DNA from: Clostridiales bacterium
Lineage (GTDB): Bacteria > Bacillota > Clostridia > Peptostreptococcales > Acidaminobacteraceae
Length of the DNA stretch: 64,000 nucleotides
Direction: 5' to 3'
NCBI GenBank assembly: GCA_030446305.1
Contig: JASUSA010000009.1
Location: 1-64,000 of the forward strand
The notes under the pieces were generated by a model. It had not been told where the DNA came from. It worked only from the letters and a program-made list of their open reading frames with translations, and ran no database searches. Made by a program: the position numbers and the translations under genes. This document shows positions 7,724 through 62,846 of the stretch, piece after piece (positions within the stretch are counted from its first letter, which is position 1; the number at the start of each line of letters is the position of its first letter).

Positions 7724-10700
7724 TTATTCTGCTGGAATTGTCAATGTCTGTCCAATCGCAATCATATCCGGGTTGGAGAGCAGCGTCTTGTTAAGGTTGA
7801 ATATTTCCATGTAGCGATCGCCGTCGCCTAGGGAAGATGAAGCGATTTTCCAGAGGCTGTCACCGCTGACGACTGTATAGACGCGCATGCCGCTTGCGGC
7901 TGTCGGTACAGCAGCTTCGGTTTGTACAGGTGCCGCCGCTGCGATTATATTGATACGCCCAGCAGGCTGACCGTATTTTGCTTCTGTTACCACGCCGCCA
8001 AGGATTTCAGTTGTATAGTTGACGAGTGCATCTTCCAAAGCAACATAGGTATTGAACGTTTCACAGTTTTTAAAGAGATAATAAGTGTCGCCGCCGCTTG
8101 CTGTAAAGTTGTTGGTTGCGACGGTATACGTTTTGTTGAGATCCAGTGCTTTTCCGGCAACTTTGACATTGGTAACACGCGTGCCGGGCTTAGCCGGTGC
8201 AAAGTAGGTCGAGTCTGGATACTGTGCACCCTTGGCATAAGGGATGGCGGTGTTAAGGGTGAATTCAATGCCTGCAACGTGCGGGAATGCGCCGAGGGAT
8301 TCAGGTGTGCTGAATGTCGCGGCTTCAATGAGTTCCAAGAGCTGAGCCCCTGTCACTTTTACAGTGGCGATCGTATTGCCGAATGGGAATACTGTCTTCA
8401 TATCTTTCATGGTAATATCACCGATTTCAATTGTTGCGCGGATACCACCGCCGTTGGTGATTGCTGCGTCCACAGTTCCTGCGCCGACAGCCTCATTGGC
8501 AGCCCATAAAATAGCATCTGCGGCAAAGTCACCGAGGTTTGTTTCCTGTGTTCGAACGCCCGGTGCACGATTGCCGTCGAGCAATACTTCGCTGACAGCA
8601 AATTTTGCTGCAAGCTGTGCATCGATTTCATCGGATTTTGCGTTTATAACGGCATTGATGGCAGGATCGACGCTACTGTAATCTTCTGCTGATACGAGCG
8701 TTGACATGATGCTAGTGCCGTCAAGCACGTCGACGCCGACGTATTCGAGACGCGTTCCCGCAGATGTGAGTACGGATTGGCTGACGAGATTACCTTCGAT
8801 AACGCTGTGGCTGTGACCGTCGATGAGCAAATTGATTCCCTTAACATTTTGAAGAACATCTGTTGATGTATTAGGCTCGCTGCCGGTATCTGTACCGAGG
8901 TGCGCGACACAGATGATCGTGCTGCATCCTGCTGCTTTTAGCGCATCAACTTGGGCTTGTGCAATGGCGTACATTGCTTTCCCCTCAGGGAATGAAAGTG
9001 AAGCGACGTTGTCTGGATTGGCTTTCGTCAATGTTTCCGGCGTCGTGAGACCAAAGACGCCAACTTTGCCAATGACCGTGTCAAAAATGACATGTGCATC
9101 AAAGACGGGTTCGCCGGTTGTTTTGTCTAATATATTGGCAGAGACAAACGGGAAGTCTGCACTGGCTTTGAGTTTGAGTAAATTGTCGTAATCGTAGTCG
9201 AATTCATGGTTGCCGGGAACCATCAGATCGTATTGTGCGAGATTCATAAAATCAATAGCGGTTGCACCTTTGCTAAGGTTCACGAGCGGGTCGCCCTGCG
9301 TCGCATCGCCTGCTGAAATAAGCAGGACTTCAGCGCCGGCTGCTTTGTAGTCCTCTGCGAGTTTTGCCACACCTGCGGTACCGATTGAAACGCCTTTAAC
9401 GGCAACGTCGCCGCCATGAGTATCATTGGTATGGAGAATGACGAGCTTGCCGGTAAGATCACCGGGATAAGCGGTTATTTCATAGACGGGCATTGTTCCC
9501 GTCACTTCACAGCCTGCGATCAGTAAAGCAGTACCGGTGACACTTTGTGAAGCGGGAATGAAGTGAATGCCTTCCGGTCCTGAATCGCCGCCGATGCCGT
9601 CTTCTGCATCAAAATCACGAGAGTTGATATAATTCACATAGCTGCTGTTTGACGGTGTCGTAATTTCATAAGCCATAATGCCGCCGATGCGTTCGAGGAC
9701 GACAAATGCATACGTATGACCGTTGATTTGACCGATGGTGACATTTTCAGGTTCAGGTCCTTTTTTAGTCGAACGGTCATTGAGTTTAAGTTTGCTGTTG
9801 GAAGTATTAAACCATTCCGGATACAGTTTTGAAGTGATGTCTTCAAAGTCACTGCCGCTGTCATAGACAGGAACGAGACTGTTGGCCGTCACTTCAAAAA
9901 TGGTCATTGAACGGCCGCCAAACATAACATCTGCGCCGCTTGGCAAACCATCAACCACTTCTGGATCTATGACGACGACTTTTTTTATTTCGTAGTCGCC
10001 TTCTTTTGAAAGGGTTATTTTTGTTTCATTTGAATAATATGACGTGTCATCGCTGTTGGGATCACCGGCATCTTCATGATCTTCTGGGAATACGGTTGAA
10101 GACCATTCTCTGCCGTCGCCCTCATTTGCAGTAATCAGGTATGTCTTGCCGCCTGTTTCATAGAGGCTGAGGCCGTCAGGCATATAGGCGCCGTAAAGAC
10201 CTTCATAACTGCGGGCACTGCCATCCAAGTAGATTTCATTGCCTTCCGCACCGTAATCTTTGAATCCGAGCGGCATGACTTTTGTAATGGCGGCAGAAGG
10301 AATATCCAATACGCCAATGGCGTTGTTTTCTTGCAGGGTGATATAAGCTGTTTTGCCGTCACCACTAATGACCATGTATTCAGGTTCTAAATCAACAGAC
10401 GGCGCTTGGCCTTTTGTCATGAGGACGCCTGATGCCGCTAATGCAGCTCGTTGTCCGTCAAAAGCAGTAAAATCAGCAATTTTAACGGTGCCTGAAGCGA
10501 GGCTGATGACAGAGATGCTGCCCTTTGGATCGATGACCGTGACGCCGGCTGAATTGGTGCCATAGCCCATGCGCGGTTCACCTTCATCAGCGGATAGTAC
10601 CGTTGTATTATCGGCAAAGATAACCATATCCGGCTGTACGCCAACAGCATAGTATACAGGTGTTCCTAAAGTATCGTCACTGCTGTCAATCGGGAAAACA

Positions 10701-11185
10701 GCGACGAGCCCCGTATCATTGTAACCGGCTGCTTGAATGGCAACGGCGAGTTTGGTATGATCGGGTGAAATGTCAACGCTGGTGATATCGCCGTATTCAA
10801 ATCCGCTGACAGCAGCTTCTGCAGCAGCTGCGAGGTCGATTTGATAACCGCTGGCACTAAGATCATTAAAGTTGTCGGCACTAAGCGCATTCATCGGTAC
10901 GGCGATGAGCACGCTGTTGATGCCATCAACGGCATAGGCCGTATGATTGGCCGGATTGTAAGTAACGATTTCCAGACCACCTTCGGGGTCATTAACATCA
11001 ACATCATAACGTGCTGTTAAATTCATTTCGATGCGACCGGGTACATCGGTCACATAACCAGTCGTCATTTCATCTGCCGAAACTGGTATCGCACACATGA
11101 CGAAGGTCAAAAGTGACAGCAAAATGAGATTTAATGCCAGTTTTGCCTTGGAAATATGTGCAGTTGCAGGTTTTCCATTTACCAT
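7724..11185 (-). CDS. Secreted 5'-nucleotidase/metallophosphatase with choice-of-anchor I and LysM domains
   Basis: Exported enzyme of 1,153 residues that probably scavenges phosphate or nucleosides from extracellular nucleotides. Signal peptide (LALNLILLSLLTFVMC region) at residues 9-38. Residues 40-565 form a beta-propeller-like region of the choice-of-anchor I type (YVTDVPGRIEM, VVIDPEVVDGLPSGADVMFG). Metallophosphatase about 575-850 with HTNDTHGGD, SAGDATQGDP, PGNHEFDYD and DGHSHSVIEG metal motifs; 5'-nucleotidase C-terminal domain about 890-1060 with NGGGIRATI; LysM about 1100-1150 (YTVVSGDSLWKI), which should bind peptidoglycan. The start at 11185 has GGGAGG five bases upstream and gives a proper signal peptide; the ATG at 11236 is less likely. 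Monocistronic. Confidence 0.9.
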   Translation of the reverse strand: MVNGKPATAHISKAKLALNLILLSLLTFVMCAIPVSADEMTTGYVTDVPGRIEMNLTARYDVDVNDPEGGLEIVTYNPANHTAYAVDGINSVLIAVPMNALSADNFNDLSASGYQIDLAAAAEAAVSGFEYGDITSVDISPDHTKLAVAIQAAGYNDTGLVAVFPIDSSDDTLGTPVYYAVGVQPDMVIFADNTTVLSADEGEPRMGYGTNSAGVTVIDPKGSISVISLASGTVKIADFTAFDGQRAALAASGVLMTKGQAPSVDLEPEYMVISGDGKTAYITLQENNAIGVLDIPSAAITKVMPLGFKDYGAEGNEIYLDGSARSYEGLYGAYMPDGLSLYETGGKTYLITANEGDGREWSSTVFPEDHEDAGDPNSDDTSYYSNETKITLSKEGDYEIKKVVVIDPEVVDGLPSGADVMFGGRSMTIFEVTANSLVPVYDSGSDFEDITSKLYPEWFNTSNSKLKLNDRSTKKGPEPENVTIGQINGHTYAFVVLERIGGIMAYEITTPSNSSYVNYINSRDFDAEDGIGGDSGPEGIHFIPASQSVTGTALLIAGCEVTGTMPVYEITAYPGDLTGKLVILHTNDTHGGDVAVKGVSIGTAGVAKLAEDYKAAGAEVLLISAGDATQGDPLVNLSKGATAIDFMNLAQYDLMVPGNHEFDYDYDNLLKLKASADFPFVSANILDKTTGEPVFDAHVIFDTVIGKVGVFGLTTPETLTKANPDNVASLSFPEGKAMYAIAQAQVDALKAAGCSTIICVAHLGTDTGSEPNTSTDVLQNVKGINLLIDGHSHSVIEGNLVSQSVLTSAGTRLEYVGVDVLDGTSIMSTLVSAEDYSSVDPAINAVINAKSDEIDAQLAAKFAVSEVLLDGNRAPGVRTQETNLGDFAADAILWAANEAVGAGTVDAAITNGGGIRATIEIGDITMKDMKTVFPFGNTIATVKVTGAQLLELIEAATFSTPESLGAFPHVAGIEFTLNTAIPYAKGAQYPDSTYFAPAKPGTRVTNVKVAGKALDLNKTYTVATNNFTASGGDTYYLFKNCETFNTYVALEDALVNYTTEILGGVVTEAKYGQPAGRINIIAAAAPVQTEAAVPTAASGMRVYTVVSGDSLWKIASSSLGDGDRYMEIFNLNKTLLSNPDMIAIGQTLTIPAE

Positions 11186-11343
11186 AATATCCTCCCAATT
11201 ACAATTTGTTATGCGTGTCATTTTATCACAGTACATTTAGCGCCATTCGCAAGAGCAGGTTAAATCTGTGTGAAGATCGTGTTTGGCGGTGTTTAACAAA
11301 GTGTTTTTGGGAACGATAAATTATAAATACACGATTGTTCACA

Positions 11344-55963: not shown

Positions 55964-56311
55964 ATGACTGAATTTAAAGATAATGAAAATACTTGCGGCT
56001 GCGGCCATGACCATGATCACGATCATGACCACGCGCATACTGTAACGCTGGAGCTTGAAAACGGCGAAGAACTTGAATGTCCAATCATTGATATTTTTGA
56101 AGTCAACGATAAAGAGTACATTGCGCTGTTGCATCCAGAAGAAGAAATCGCATTGCTCTATGGCTTCATTGAGTATGAAGATGATACCATTGAACTCACA
56201 GAAATTGTAAGTGATGAAGAGTATGAACTGGTATCGGAAGCGTTTAATGAATTGCTTGATTCTGAGGACGATGACGAAGAAGATGACGAAGATGAGGACG
56301 ATGAAGCTTAA
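55964..56311 (+). CDS. DUF1292 protein with His-Asp repeat and acidic tail
   Basis: 115 residues. The core (VTLELENGEELECPIIDIFE, then YIALLHPEEE, YGFIEYEDD) is DUF1292, a small Firmicutes family of unknown function often next to RNA-metabolism genes. N-terminus GCGHDHDHDHDHAH is a likely metal-binding run; the last 20 residues are nearly all Asp and Glu. The DNA encoding the His-Asp repeat is itself repetitive. Confidence 0.87.
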   Translation: MTEFKDNENTCGCGHDHDHDHDHAHTVTLELENGEELECPIIDIFEVNDKEYIALLHPEEEIALLYGFIEYEDDTIELTEIVSDEEYELVSEAFNELLDSEDDDEEDDEDEDDEA

Positions 56312-58480: not shown

Positions 58481-59587
58481 ATGAAGCGATTTAAAATCAG
58501 TTTTTTACTGGTACTGATGATGCTGTTAACAGTATGGTCACCTGTTGGCACCGCACAGCGCGACACAACACGTCAAATGACAAATAATGATGAGACTGCC
58601 GAAATCATGGAAGCACTTTTTGTATTAAAACAGCAAGCAGATGCAGCGAGCCGCCGGGTAAAGGTACTTGAGGCAACATGCGTGCAGCTGGATGAGACCA
58701 TCGCGGCAAAAAAACAGCATGTTTTGATGATGGAAGCGTCGGCAGACCGGCAGCAGTCTCTAATGGGAAATTTTTTAAGGCAATATCAGCGAATGGGCGC
58801 GGGTTCAGCTGTTGAGATACTGCTTCGTGCTCAAAACCTCAGCGATCTTATATGGCAGATCAATGTCATGAAGGACTTTTCATATAAGATGACAGAACAA
58901 GCCAATACACTATCAGTCGAACTTCAAAAATTAGCAGAAGAAAATGAATCGCTGGCGGCATCAAAAGATGCATTTGAAAAAGAACAGCGGACACTTCTCA
59001 AACAGATGGAAGAAGCACAGCTTCGTCAGGCGACACTCAATGAAAGACTAAGTGTACTGCAGGCAGAGGGAAAAGACTATGAGGCACAGCTTATGGCAGT
59101 GGATGCCAGCTGGCAGGTGGCGCAGACAGAAATTGGGAAATTGTCAGCGCGATTAAATGCACTGCGCGATGGCACGGCATTATCCGCATCTGATTATTCG
59201 CTTGCATTCTCTTTTTCAGGCATTAATGTAACCTTTTCTGAAGCGACGCTTAACAAATTGTTTAACACAGAAGAAGACGCTTTAGATGGTTCTGATGTGC
59301 CTTTTGTGATGATCAATTGCGAGCCCGATGCGGTGCAGTTGATCTTGGATGAGGGCAGGCTGAAGATTGACGGACAATTTGAAATAGAAACGGCAACATC
59401 GCTTCGATTTGTTCCGCTAACAGCTTCATACAATGAGATGACAATTGAACCTGAGACACTGGCGGCGATCTTTCATTCAGAGCCGGCCGTGATTGATTTG
59501 TCCTCTGCACTTGAGAACGGGACGATCAAACGTATTGAAATGAAAGAAGATGCACTTTCACTGACGTTGAGTTATTTTAATTTTTAG
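58481..59587 (+). CDS. Exported coiled-coil protein, PcsB/CwlO-like, lacking hydrolase domain
   Basis: 368 residues. Signal peptide at 1-26 (FLLVLMMLLTVWSP; cleavage near TAQ). Long coiled coil about 35-235 (EILLRAQNLSDLIWQINVMK resembles the coiled coils of PcsB, CwlO and EnvC). Those proteins bind FtsEX and usually end in CHAP, NlpC/P60 or M23 hydrolase domains. Here the end (about 240-368, GINVTFSEATLNKL, EGRLKIDGQFEI, SYNEMTIEPETL) has no such domain and resembles lipid-binding LmeA/YpmS-like folds. It starts the operon with FtsE and FtsX, 9 bases ahead of ftsE. Likely a regulator of a separate hydrolase, or an envelope lipid handler. Confidence 0.72.
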   Translation: MKRFKISFLLVLMMLLTVWSPVGTAQRDTTRQMTNNDETAEIMEALFVLKQQADAASRRVKVLEATCVQLDETIAAKKQHVLMMEASADRQQSLMGNFLRQYQRMGAGSAVEILLRAQNLSDLIWQINVMKDFSYKMTEQANTLSVELQKLAEENESLAASKDAFEKEQRTLLKQMEEAQLRQATLNERLSVLQAEGKDYEAQLMAVDASWQVAQTEIGKLSARLNALRDGTALSASDYSLAFSFSGINVTFSEATLNKLFNTEEDALDGSDVPFVMINCEPDAVQLILDEGRLKIDGQFEIETATSLRFVPLTASYNEMTIEPETLAAIFHSEPAVIDLSSALENGTIKRIEMKEDALSLTLSYFNF

Positions 59588-59596
59588 GAGTAGGCA

Positions 59597-60301
59597 ATGA
59601 TTGAAATCAAAGGAGCACAACTTATCTATAGCAGCGGTGCCGTTGCACTTGAAGCGATTGATTTAACAATAAAACCCGGCATGCTCGTGTTTATTACCGG
59701 GGAAAGCGGCTCTGGCAAAACCAGTTTGCTGAAATTGATGATGGGAATTGAAAAACCGACGCAGGGAAAGGTGTATGTTGACGGAAGTGATATGGCCGAT
59801 CTGCATGGCAATGCACTGGCTAAAGTGCGTCGGAAAATTGGGCCTGTCTTTCAGGAACTTAAGCTGCTGGAAGGTAAAACAGCACTTGAAAATGTTATTT
59901 TTGGCATGCGCTTTTATGGCATGCGCCTTGAAACCATACGGAAAAAATCAAGCGAAGCACTGGCACAAGTAGGGCTGCAGATAAAAGCAGACATGCCGAT
60001 TGAAACCCTCTCTTGGGGTGAACGGCAACGCGTTGCCATTGCCAGAGCAATTGCACGTAAACCGGCGTATATCATTGCGGATGAACCCACGGGAAGCTTG
60101 GATGAAGCAAATGCCATAAAGATATTAAGTTTGCTGGCTGAACTGCAAACACCAGAAACCGCAGTCATTATTACAACGCATGCAACCCATTTAATAAAGG
60201 CAATGGCACCTTTTAATCATGTGTCGCTTGCCGGTGGGCGAATGATCGCACTATCTGATGAATTTCACGACGGCAAACAGGGCGAGACGACGAAAGGGTG
60301 A
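59597..60301 (+). CDS. ftsE: FtsE-type ABC ATPase
   Basis: 234-residue ATPase. Walker A TGESGSGKTS, signature LSWGERQRVAIA (Trp instead of the usual Gly), Walker [14 protein letters not shown]. FtsE with FtsX passes ATP-driven conformational change across the membrane to activate a peptidoglycan hydrolase. Between a coiled-coil exporter-partner gene and ftsX, so function is well supported; the changed signature LSWGE, shared by few FtsE, is worth noting. Confidence 0.88.
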   Translation: MIEIKGAQLIYSSGAVALEAIDLTIKPGMLVFITGESGSGKTSLLKLMMGIEKPTQGKVYVDGSDMADLHGNALAKVRRKIGPVFQELKLLEGKTALENVIFGMRFYGMRLETIRKKSSEALAQVGLQIKADMPIETLSWGERQRVAIARAIARKPAYIIADEPTGSLDEANAIKILSLLAELQTPETAVIITTHATHLIKAMAPFNHVSLAGGRMIALSDEFHDGKQGETTKG

Positions 60302-60305
60302 TCCA

Positions 60306-61172
60306 ATGGGCAATGTTAAATATTATACGGGTGAAGTATGGTTTTTACTAAAGCAGCAAAAAACAGGCAATGCAGTGATGCTGATGAGCATGACACTGCT
60401 GATGGCACTACTGACTTTAACCATTGCCTGGGCACTGGTTGTAAATGATGCGGCATCCGCAGTTAGAGCTGAAAGTGAGATCGACGTCTATTTGACGGAT
60501 GATACCTATGATGTCGTATCGGATCGTATTGAACGCATGTTTCAAGGTACTGAAACGAGAGTTGTCTCGGCAGAAGAGGCGTATCGCAATATGGATTCAA
60601 TACTTGGAGAAGGACAGAATGTCCTTTCGCTATTTGATGAAAACCCACTGGAAAGTTATATTGAAGTGAAATTGCCAATTGAAATGGCGGGGGAAACTGC
60701 CGCAAAAATTGAAAAAATAACGGGTGTCGACTACGTACGTGATAATAAGGCGGTTCTAGATGCTGTTAATTCCTTTACAAAGCTGTCGATACGCTTAAGC
60801 CTTTTTTTGCTTGCAGGCGTTGGCATGGGTACTTTTCTAATTTTATCCGGTTTAATTCGCCAAAGCATCCATCAATATCGGGATCATATTGACACCATGC
60901 AGCTGCTGGGCGCGCCAAATGCGTTTATTCAAATTCCCTTTTTCGGTGAGGGGATTTTTCTGAGTTTTTTGAGCATGCTAATTGCATTCTCAGCCAGTGC
61001 GTGGGGGATAACAGCGCTGCTGAATAAAATGCGTACAGCTGTGATGTGGTTTCCGATACCACAGGGGCATGCTGTCATGTTGAAGACCGCAGTCTTTATG
61101 GCAGGGTTCAGCCTATTGATTGGCATAACCGGCAGCATATTTGGTTTTAGATCGGCAATCAAAAAAGCATAG
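60306..61172 (+). CDS. ftsX: FtsX-type membrane protein
   Basis: 288 residues with four helices (about 23-45, 165-190, 220-245, 258-285) and an extracytoplasmic loop of about 120 residues between the first and second (INDVYLT-type strand IDVYLTDDTYDVV; ESYIEVKLPIEMAGE), the part that contacts the coiled-coil partner. MQLLGAPNAFIQIPF-type cytoplasmic segment matches FtsX. The ATG at 60306 with AAGGGTG upstream is preferred over the in-frame start at 60258 inside ftsE. The whole module has no divisome gene next to it. Confidence 0.9.
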   Translation: MGNVKYYTGEVWFLLKQQKTGNAVMLMSMTLLMALLTLTIAWALVVNDAASAVRAESEIDVYLTDDTYDVVSDRIERMFQGTETRVVSAEEAYRNMDSILGEGQNVLSLFDENPLESYIEVKLPIEMAGETAAKIEKITGVDYVRDNKAVLDAVNSFTKLSIRLSLFLLAGVGMGTFLILSGLIRQSIHQYRDHIDTMQLLGAPNAFIQIPFFGEGIFLSFLSMLIAFSASAWGITALLNKMRTAVMWFPIPQGHAVMLKTAVFMAGFSLLIGITGSIFGFRSAIKKA

Positions 61173-61242: not shown

Positions 61243-61875
61243 ATGGCGGTTCAAGTCAATGCAGAAAAGTTAAAACATGCAGAACAGATCTTTTTTAACA
61301 TGTATCCGGACGGTTTTGAAGCCGATGAAATGAAGGCTATTGCCAAAAAACACAAAGTTGAAAAAATGCGACAGTTTGTTGAAACACAGTTTAATGAGGC
61401 GGCTTTTGAAAATACAGATCAGCTCTTCGAAGATTATGTGAAACTCATTGCGCGTTCCTCACTGGTTTCTGTTTTTGAAAAGGCTAAATTTAGAGATGCT
61501 GCAAAAGTGATGTCTGCTGTCGAAAAAGACATGATGGTCAAGGGAATGAAGGCCTTTTTATATGGCAATCAAGCCGCTGGATTTGAGATGCAAATCGAGG
61601 TGCTGGAACGTTATAAGCTTGCGAAGTGGCCAATTTTAACGGTATTGGGACTCTATCAGTTCCCGGCAGTTGAAGTGCTCGTAAAGCCAACGACGGTGAA
61701 AGGCATTTTAAAATATTTTGAAGTAACCGATATTCAGTATACCTCAAAGCCGACCTATGCATTCTATAGCCAGTATCGTGAACTCGTCAATGCGATAAAG
61801 GCTTTGGCGCATCCAATGCTGATGGTGGATAATGCCGCATTCTGCGGCTTTCTGATGATGACAATGACACTGTAG
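61243..61875 (+). CDS. Hypothetical 210-residue protein
   Basis: I do not recognise this soluble protein. It is predicted alpha-helical in the first two-thirds (AEKLKHAEQIFFNMYPDGFE; MKAIAKKHKVEKMRQFVETQ) with a motif-poor C-terminal part (IQYTSKPTYAFYSQYRELVN) and ends FCGFLMMTMTL. GGAGG before the ATG. It follows ftsX by 70 bases on the same strand and may be in the same transcript. Confidence 0.7.
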   Translation: MAVQVNAEKLKHAEQIFFNMYPDGFEADEMKAIAKKHKVEKMRQFVETQFNEAAFENTDQLFEDYVKLIARSSLVSVFEKAKFRDAAKVMSAVEKDMMVKGMKAFLYGNQAAGFEMQIEVLERYKLAKWPILTVLGLYQFPAVEVLVKPTTVKGILKYFEVTDIQYTSKPTYAFYSQYRELVNAIKALAHPMLMVDNAAFCGFLMMTMTL

Positions 61876-62165: not shown

Positions 62166-62846
62166 ATGAGATCTTTGAAGGCGTATTTATCAGAAAACAA
62201 GCATTTTTACTGGATTCTATTGCTATTGCCATTACTGGTTTGGTTTAAACTCTTAGAATTCAATTTAGTGCCTAAATACATGGTGCATTCATTTATTGAT
62301 GACCTTATTCCCTTTTCAAAAGTATTTATTATACCTTATATTCTATGGTTTCCATACATTGCCTATGGCGTCCTGTTTACGGGTCGGCATAATCGATCGG
62401 ATTATCTGAAGCTATTGATTTTTATTGGTGGCGGGATGTCAATTGCTTACATATTTTATATGTTTTTTCCAAATGCGCAGGAGCTGAGGCCGACGATTAC
62501 GGCCAATGACCCGCTGTCGCTGCTGGTTCGTTTTATTTATTGGTCAGATACGCCGACCAACGTCTTTCCAAGTATTCACGTCATCAATGCAGTGGCAGTC
62601 GATGTGGCACTGCATCATTCAGAAGCCTTTTCTCAGAAAAAAGGCGGCAAGTGGCTGTCGTCACTGATCATGATATTGATTTGCCTGTCCACGATGTTTG
62701 TCAAACAGCACTCTGTATTGGATGTTGCCGGAGGGCTTGTCGTATCGGCATTCTTCATTGTACCGCTTTATCTGATTCCTAAGCGTCGCGTTGTGATCGA
62801 ATCAATGACGGCTCAAACGGCGTCGGAACAGCACGAATTTTCTTAA
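62166..62846 (+). CDS. PAP2-superfamily membrane phosphatase
   Basis: 226 residues with about six helices. The PAP2 motifs PSIHVINAVAVD (motif 2, His) and KQHSVLDVAGG (motif 3, His) are present; motif 1 is degenerate (AQELRPTITAND). Of the type acting on lipid phosphates such as undecaprenyl or phosphatidylglycerol phosphates, or transferring inositol-type headgroups. No ribosome-binding site other than GGGAGC is seen. It stands alone. Confidence 0.82.
   Translation: MRSLKAYLSENKHFYWILLLLPLLVWFKLLEFNLVPKYMVHSFIDDLIPFSKVFIIPYILWFPYIAYGVLFTGRHNRSDYLKLLIFIGGGMSIAYIFYMFFPNAQELRPTITANDPLSLLVRFIYWSDTPTNVFPSIHVINAVAVDVALHHSEAFSQKKGGKWLSSLIMILICLSTMFVKQHSVLDVAGGLVVSAFFIVPLYLIPKRRVVIESMTAQTASEQHEFS

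Follow-up and report, generated by a model that had tools for sequence, protein, structure and literature searches.

FtsEX, a type VII ATP-binding cassette (ABC) complex, is usually treated as a dedicated switch for cell wall hydrolases, and its co-encoded secreted coiled-coil partners (PcsB, CwlO, RipC or EnvC) end in CHAP, NlpC/P60, M23 or LytM domains. An operon of related architecture was found at positions 58,481–61,172 of a 64,000-nucleotide stretch of clostridial DNA (hereafter the window; Clostridiales bacterium, assembly GCA_030446305.1, positions 1 to 64,000 of contig JASUSA010000009.1). It shares with FtsEX a homologous ATPase (FtsE'), a permease with one extracellular domain (FtsX') and a co-encoded secreted coiled-coil partner (P1) with a conserved docking segment. 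In contrast to the canonical partners, P1 ends in an LmeA-type domain; the gene order is partner-ftsE'-ftsX' rather than ftsE-ftsX-partner, the ABC signature is LS[WFY]G[EQ], unlike that of canonical FtsE, and FtsE' belongs to a separate clade which coexists with the canonical complex. We put at roughly 0.55 the probability that these genes specify a second ABC complex of FtsEX type (type VII, mechanotransmission), one reserved for a lipid-binding effector.

Other described systems resemble this module in part. LolCDE-LolA is also a type VII ABC system, in which lipidated molecules are handled via a soluble lipid-binding partner; FtsX', however, is FtsX-like (its family profile found FtsX structures in the PDB at E = 5e-30 and LolE only marginally, at 0.008), and the partner is not LolA but a coiled coil bearing an LmeA-type domain. 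LmeA (DUF2993, PF11209) is secreted like P1 and homologous to it by profiles over the C-terminal ~115–135 residues, whereas the N-terminal half of LmeA is missing from P1 and an FtsX-type coiled coil stands in its place; we know of no tie between LmeA and an ABC transporter. A precedent for the way such a module might work is YbbAP-TesA of E. coli, a type VII ABC complex with a lipid hydrolase, which extracts hydrophobic molecules (PMC12646458) and presents them to an extracytoplasmic partner, although its permease and partner belong to other families, P1 has no esterase domain and TesA has no coiled-coil lever. A literature search, outside which many subscription journals lay, returned no publication describing the module and none dealing with both FtsEX and TULIP proteins.

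All three genes lie on the + strand with near-zero intergenic gaps in the open reading frame (ORF) reading of the window. The first (58481..59587), an ORF kept in relatives, encodes P1, a secreted protein of 368 amino acids (aa) with a coiled-coil hairpin and a C-terminal LmeA/TULIP-like domain. FtsE' (59597..60301) is an ATPase of 234 aa from a clade of FtsE paralogues, with TIGR02673 as its best family, and FtsX' (60306..61172) is a 288-aa permease with four helices, for which the ATG at 60306 was taken as the start, the longest ORF opening at 60258 within ftsE'. Pfam recognised ABC_tran in FtsE', both FtsX_ECD (PF18075, E = 2.6e-8) and FtsX (PF02687, E = 1.6e-7) in FtsX', and no family above threshold in P1. 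FtsX' thus has the FtsX fold with a single FtsX extracellular domain (residues 58–144, 60477..60737; PF18075), predicted to hold the coiled coil, and in alignment with canonical FtsX it retains the ENP motif of the X-lobe (residues DENPLESY). FtsE and FtsX were also the best NCBIfam models for the pair, both below their equivalog cut-offs: 218.9 bits against 264.85 for FtsE (TIGR02673), and 124.6 against 255 and 109.8 against 225 for FtsX_Gneg and FtsX_Gpos, respectively. Scores so far under these cut-offs mark FtsE' and FtsX' as relatives of the standard division pair and not as that pair itself.

The assembly containing the window (3.4 Mb, 126 contigs) encodes a second FtsX, 25% identical to FtsX', in an operon, between FtsE (LSGGE) and a coiled-coil protein of 384 aa with a C-terminal Peptidase_M23 domain; given this ordinary FtsEX-M23 operon elsewhere in the genome, the window module is a paralogous system. 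When 28 genomes were tested with an FtsX extracellular-domain model, exactly two FtsX genes were found in 24 of the 27 carrying the module, the exceptions being a metagenome-assembled genome (MAG; G004) in which the canonical copy was not found, one (G002) with FtsX' unreported at the threshold used and one (G500) with FtsX' cut by a contig end. Canonical operons of 18 genomes had the order ftsE-ftsX-coiled coil, and the third gene had a recognisable M23 motif in 16 cases. Judged by its equivalog scores, its signature and its clade, the module is not the canonical division FtsEX, and it should be named an FtsEX paralogue rather than FtsEX itself.

A sequence-only reading of this DNA had attributed to the first gene the coiled coil of FtsX partners without any CHAP, NlpC/P60 or M23 domain, and both statements were borne out. 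P1 begins with a hydrophobic, Sec-type signal peptide without a lipobox (residues 1–25, 58481..58555), predicted from the sequence and accompanied by similar hydrophobic N-termini in relatives, and continues with a coiled-coil hairpin (residues 26–231, 58556..59173) homologous to that of canonical FtsX partners. Window P1 alone matched Pfam CC_PcsB at E = 0.026, and the family matched all 12 aligned P1 proteins (best 3.3e-9), while the P1 profile found PcsB in the PDB at 9.8e-8. The top Foldseek match of the full-length AlphaFold2 model (mean predicted local distance difference test score, pLDDT, 74) was EnvC in complex with V. cholerae FtsEX (E = 3.8e-4), with PcsB next and the RipA N-terminal domain and EnvC-FtsX among further matches. 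Conservation across 59 sequences peaked at residues 97–144 (58769..58912), the best-conserved part of the whole protein and the putative FtsX-docking sites. Aligned to PcsB, this segment covers PcsB residues 101–114 and 130–148, for which the crystal structure of EnvC-FtsX led to a prediction of FtsX binding (PMC7668044); binding of P1 to FtsX' is predicted likewise.

P1 parts from the canonical partners near residue 229. Its profile matched 16 of 16 canonical coiled-coil partners with M23 (CC-M23 proteins) from the same organisms at E values of 8e-9 to 6e-21, reversed sequences giving 0.0013 or worse and shuffled sequences no match. These matches end at P1 residue ~211–243, beyond which lies M23 in the canonical partners and the LmeA-type domain in P1; a shared coiled coil that ends where M23 or the new domain begins reads as a domain swap on a common lever. 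No CHAP, NlpC/P60 or M23 domain was matched by Pfam in window P1 or in the 12 aligned P1 proteins, the LmeA-like domain occupying the place of the C-terminal peptidoglycan hydrolase or LytM domain of FtsX partners, and on this domain content P1 is not a peptidoglycan hydrolase.

The C-terminal domain (CTD; residues 232–368, 59174..59584), of ~135 residues, is supported as an LmeA/DUF2993-type (TULIP) domain by its sequence relatives and predicted model, which agrees with the lipid-binding-like fold that the sequence-only reading had suspected there. A CTD profile found LmeA proteins at E values of up to 2.5e-11, against 4.9 for the reversed control; in the other direction, P1 C-termini were found with an LmeA profile at up to 1.1e-7, and hhalign of the two gave a probability of 97%; these reciprocal hidden Markov model matches, with a clean reversed control, establish the homology with LmeA/DUF2993. 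An affinity to YpmS/DUF2140, which had been named alongside LmeA, was not borne out (hhalign probability 0.5%, with only three YpmS sequences aligned). Distant P1 relatives in other classes matched PF11209 at ~1e-4 over its C-terminal half only and scored 22.8–23.8 bits against a gathering cut-off of 27.3, short of a full-length domain. The C-terminal half of DUF2993 is a predicted TULIP domain and its N-terminal half is Chorein-N-like (PMC6791001), and LmeA is a phospholipid-binding protein (PMC7643837). Lipid binding by the CTD is predicted by this relationship and by its modelled fold.

Since coiled coils dominate fold comparisons of whole P1, the CTD was modelled alone (pLDDT 84, predicted template modelling score 0.75), and in this predicted model it has a TULIP-type fold, TULIP proteins being its best matches. 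The six top rows in VIA-align were five TULIP proteins: BPI (Z 8.1 over 132 residues, and again at 5.0), YceB (7.9 over 113 residues), CETP (6.5), P47 (5.8) and LBP (5.2), with the first unrelated chain at Z 4.6. In sequence, the CTD profile had no match in the PDB up to E = 10. Several observations weigh against assigning a lipid task to the module. The alignment tool's own note classes a Z of about 8 as borderline, so the sequence evidence weighs more; the first three Foldseek matches of the CTD model were TULIP proteins, with a best E of only 0.019, which is weak alone. Pfam LmeA matched only two of 21 CTDs in hmmscan (best E = 7.7e-4) and the window CTD was not among them. Neighbour clustering across 91 loci showed no consistently linked lipid-synthesis gene, so that only the CTD points to lipids, and TULIP/LmeA-like folds could instead mediate protein-protein contacts.

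With an external arm ending in a predicted lipid-binding rather than wall-cutting domain, this ATP-driven machine has probably been diverted to membrane lipids, and most likely FtsE'X', by analogy with FtsEX, moves the coiled-coil arm bearing that domain. FtsE' would bind and hydrolyse ATP in the cytosol; ATP binding by its dimer would close the permease and shift the extracellular domains together with the P1 hairpin, which the extracellular domain of FtsX' would grip where canonical FtsX grips PcsB or EnvC. The coiled-coil lever would then reposition or un-gate the CTD, which might accept an amphipathic molecule from the outward-facing side of the membrane, retain it or transfer it, candidate cargoes being a phospholipid, a glycolipid, or a lipoteichoic or undecaprenyl-linked precursor. 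Both the formation of the complex and its ATP-driven movement we infer from the behaviour of FtsEX. As the payload of the hairpin is a lipid-binding-type domain, the likely output would be loading, release or positioning of such a molecule. We only tentatively suggest the more specific role of an ATP-powered lipid handler of the single-membrane clostridial envelope, whose TULIP domain would extract a lipid, or a polymer precursor linked to one, or shuttle it through the space next to the wall while the FtsE'X' lever loads, unloads or positions it. A lever of the FtsEX kind on a lipid-binding-type domain, beside the normal system, allows a test of the notion that FtsEX is an extracellular actuator of general use, and it gives bacterial LmeA/TULIP domains a concrete candidate for an ATP-driven partner.

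In its small size the CTD resembles the reduced TULIP core that is reported in DUF2993 (PMC6791001), as might be expected if it were a lipid or membrane sensor or an anchor and not a carrier. In that case it would report membrane state (tension, a lipid-linked precursor or curvature) or tether the arm, and the complex would signal to other proteins. We consider this doubtful: no partner gene is linked to the module, there being no fourth consistently linked gene and the next neighbour clusters reaching just 19 of the 91 loci, and the domain is strictly paired with a coiled coil of lever type and with ATPase motifs that are intact, which fits output equally with input.

In FtsE' the sequence-only reading had noted LSWGE in place of the usual signature motif; it is present at 60008..60022, beside an intact Walker A, Q-loop and Walker B, but it is no individual oddity. 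Position 3 was aromatic in 57 of 57 FtsE' proteins gathered by way of the CTD or P1 (51 W, 5 F, 1 Y), in window FtsE' and in 12 more from the wider phylum, giving 62 W, 6 F and 2 Y over all 70 examined, versus LSGGE in 26 and LSAGE in one of the 27 canonical FtsE proteins of the same genome set. In a maximum-likelihood tree, 30 FtsE' sequences formed a single group (100/100) separate from 17 canonical ones, so that FtsE' does not group with the canonical FtsE of its own genome; the window protein is a divergent member. By alignment and tree, LSWGE is the mark of a distinct clade, and the clade-wide aromatic third residue amounts to a natural experiment on the ABC signature.

An aromatic residue in all 70 FtsE' implies that the ATP sandwich is functionally constrained, which would suit a slow or non-hydrolytic FtsE' and a complex serving as an ATP-binding switch or clamp for P1 and not as a cycling motor. 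This alternative appears improbable as well. Walker A, the Walker B glutamate, the Q-loop and the switch histidine are invariant among the aligned FtsE' and intact in the window protein, which should accordingly be predicted still to bind ATP, and substitutions at signature position 3 occur in active ABC proteins.

In EnvC, whose coiled coil is of the same type as that of P1, a non-catalytic LytM domain activates separate enzymes (PMC7668044), and P1 might by this precedent be an EnvC-like activator whose CTD turns on a separate wall hydrolase by binding it. We regard this as unlikely, given that the CTD is homologous to LmeA and not to LytM, that CC-M23 proteins with their own FtsEX are already present in these genomes and that neighbour clustering of the 91 loci found no hydrolase gene conserved beside the module. 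The sequence-only reading had offered either a separate hydrolase or a membrane-lipid task as the object of this FtsEX; the lipid half agrees with the LmeA/TULIP domain, while the hydrolase half is not needed because the M23 partner of the genome has its own canonical FtsEX.

Of 60 related genomes, 11 had a full-length homologue of P1, each time with ftsE' and ftsX' coming next. Across 394 genomes of the order, the P1 profile gave 30 full-length matches at E ≤ 1.7e-89, after which matches dropped to 1.1e-27 and comprised the coiled coil only, separating two clean classes. At class level the CTD occurred in 36 of 391 genomes, and the order P1-FtsE'-FtsX' was intact in all 29 CTD loci not cut within the operon. 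The CTD alignment being too divergent to scan with, ~85,000 named genomes were scanned with FtsE'-specific stretches, yielding 170 confirmed loci; of the 80 kept, 76 had the complete operon in the same order and the remaining four ended at contig ends. As these 80 loci were picked by the LSWGE pattern, they cannot themselves prove a universal aromatic residue, which rests on the CTD- and P1-driven sets. The hosts are clostridia in the broad sense, of many families: Fusibacter, Geosporobacter, Natronincola, Alkaliphilus, Anaerosolibacter, Tissierella, Herbinix, Mobilitalea, Petroclostridium, Clostridium homopropionicum, Desulfosporosinus and many MAGs. That the module is an ordinary division FtsEX minus its hydrolase domain, a decaying or redundant duplicate, would accord with its patchy distribution (G001, of the same genus, is without it) and the divergence of the window copy, but is very improbable in view of the strict gene order across many clostridial families, the conserved CTD, the invariant Walker, Q-loop and aromatic signature positions and the single old clade (100/100).

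Outside the phylum, one complete module was seen, on a contig labelled as an Anaerolineaceae (Chloroflexota) MAG (L136), through either horizontal transfer or mis-binning of the contig; no relative was found on viral contigs. Orphan P1-type proteins with a coiled coil and an LmeA-like domain occur in other classes of the phylum with no adjoining FtsE or FtsX gene (L254, 2434-3564 on the + strand; L256, 3330-4496, and L269, 1498-2598, both on the - strand; and further L270, L272-L275, L277 and L278), and these may serve canonical FtsEX or act alone. In several close relatives (L025, L026, L028, L032, L033) the module lies between a divergent gene with a germane domain, of spore germination type, and prfC (release factor 3), an arrangement that is local synteny of the family. 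A strict link to sporulation, prompted by this neighbour, was rejected, the window genome and several other carriers being without SpoIVA.

Directly 3' of ftsX' in the window, a 210-aa protein (61243-61875, +) had no Pfam or NCBIfam family above cut-off, and ~1 kb beyond the operon, in the same orientation, lies a gene for a PAP2-superfamily, lipid-phosphatase-like membrane protein (62166-62843, +), which neighbour clustering gave no sign of being a conserved neighbour of the module. Elsewhere in the window, a DUF1292 protein (55964-56311, +) carries a His/Asp-rich CGCGHDHDHDHDHAH stretch near its N-terminus, possibly a metal-binding insertion, and a 1170-aa secreted protein (7724-11236, -) combines choice-of-anchor I, metallophosphatase, 5'-nucleotidase C-terminal and LysM domains.
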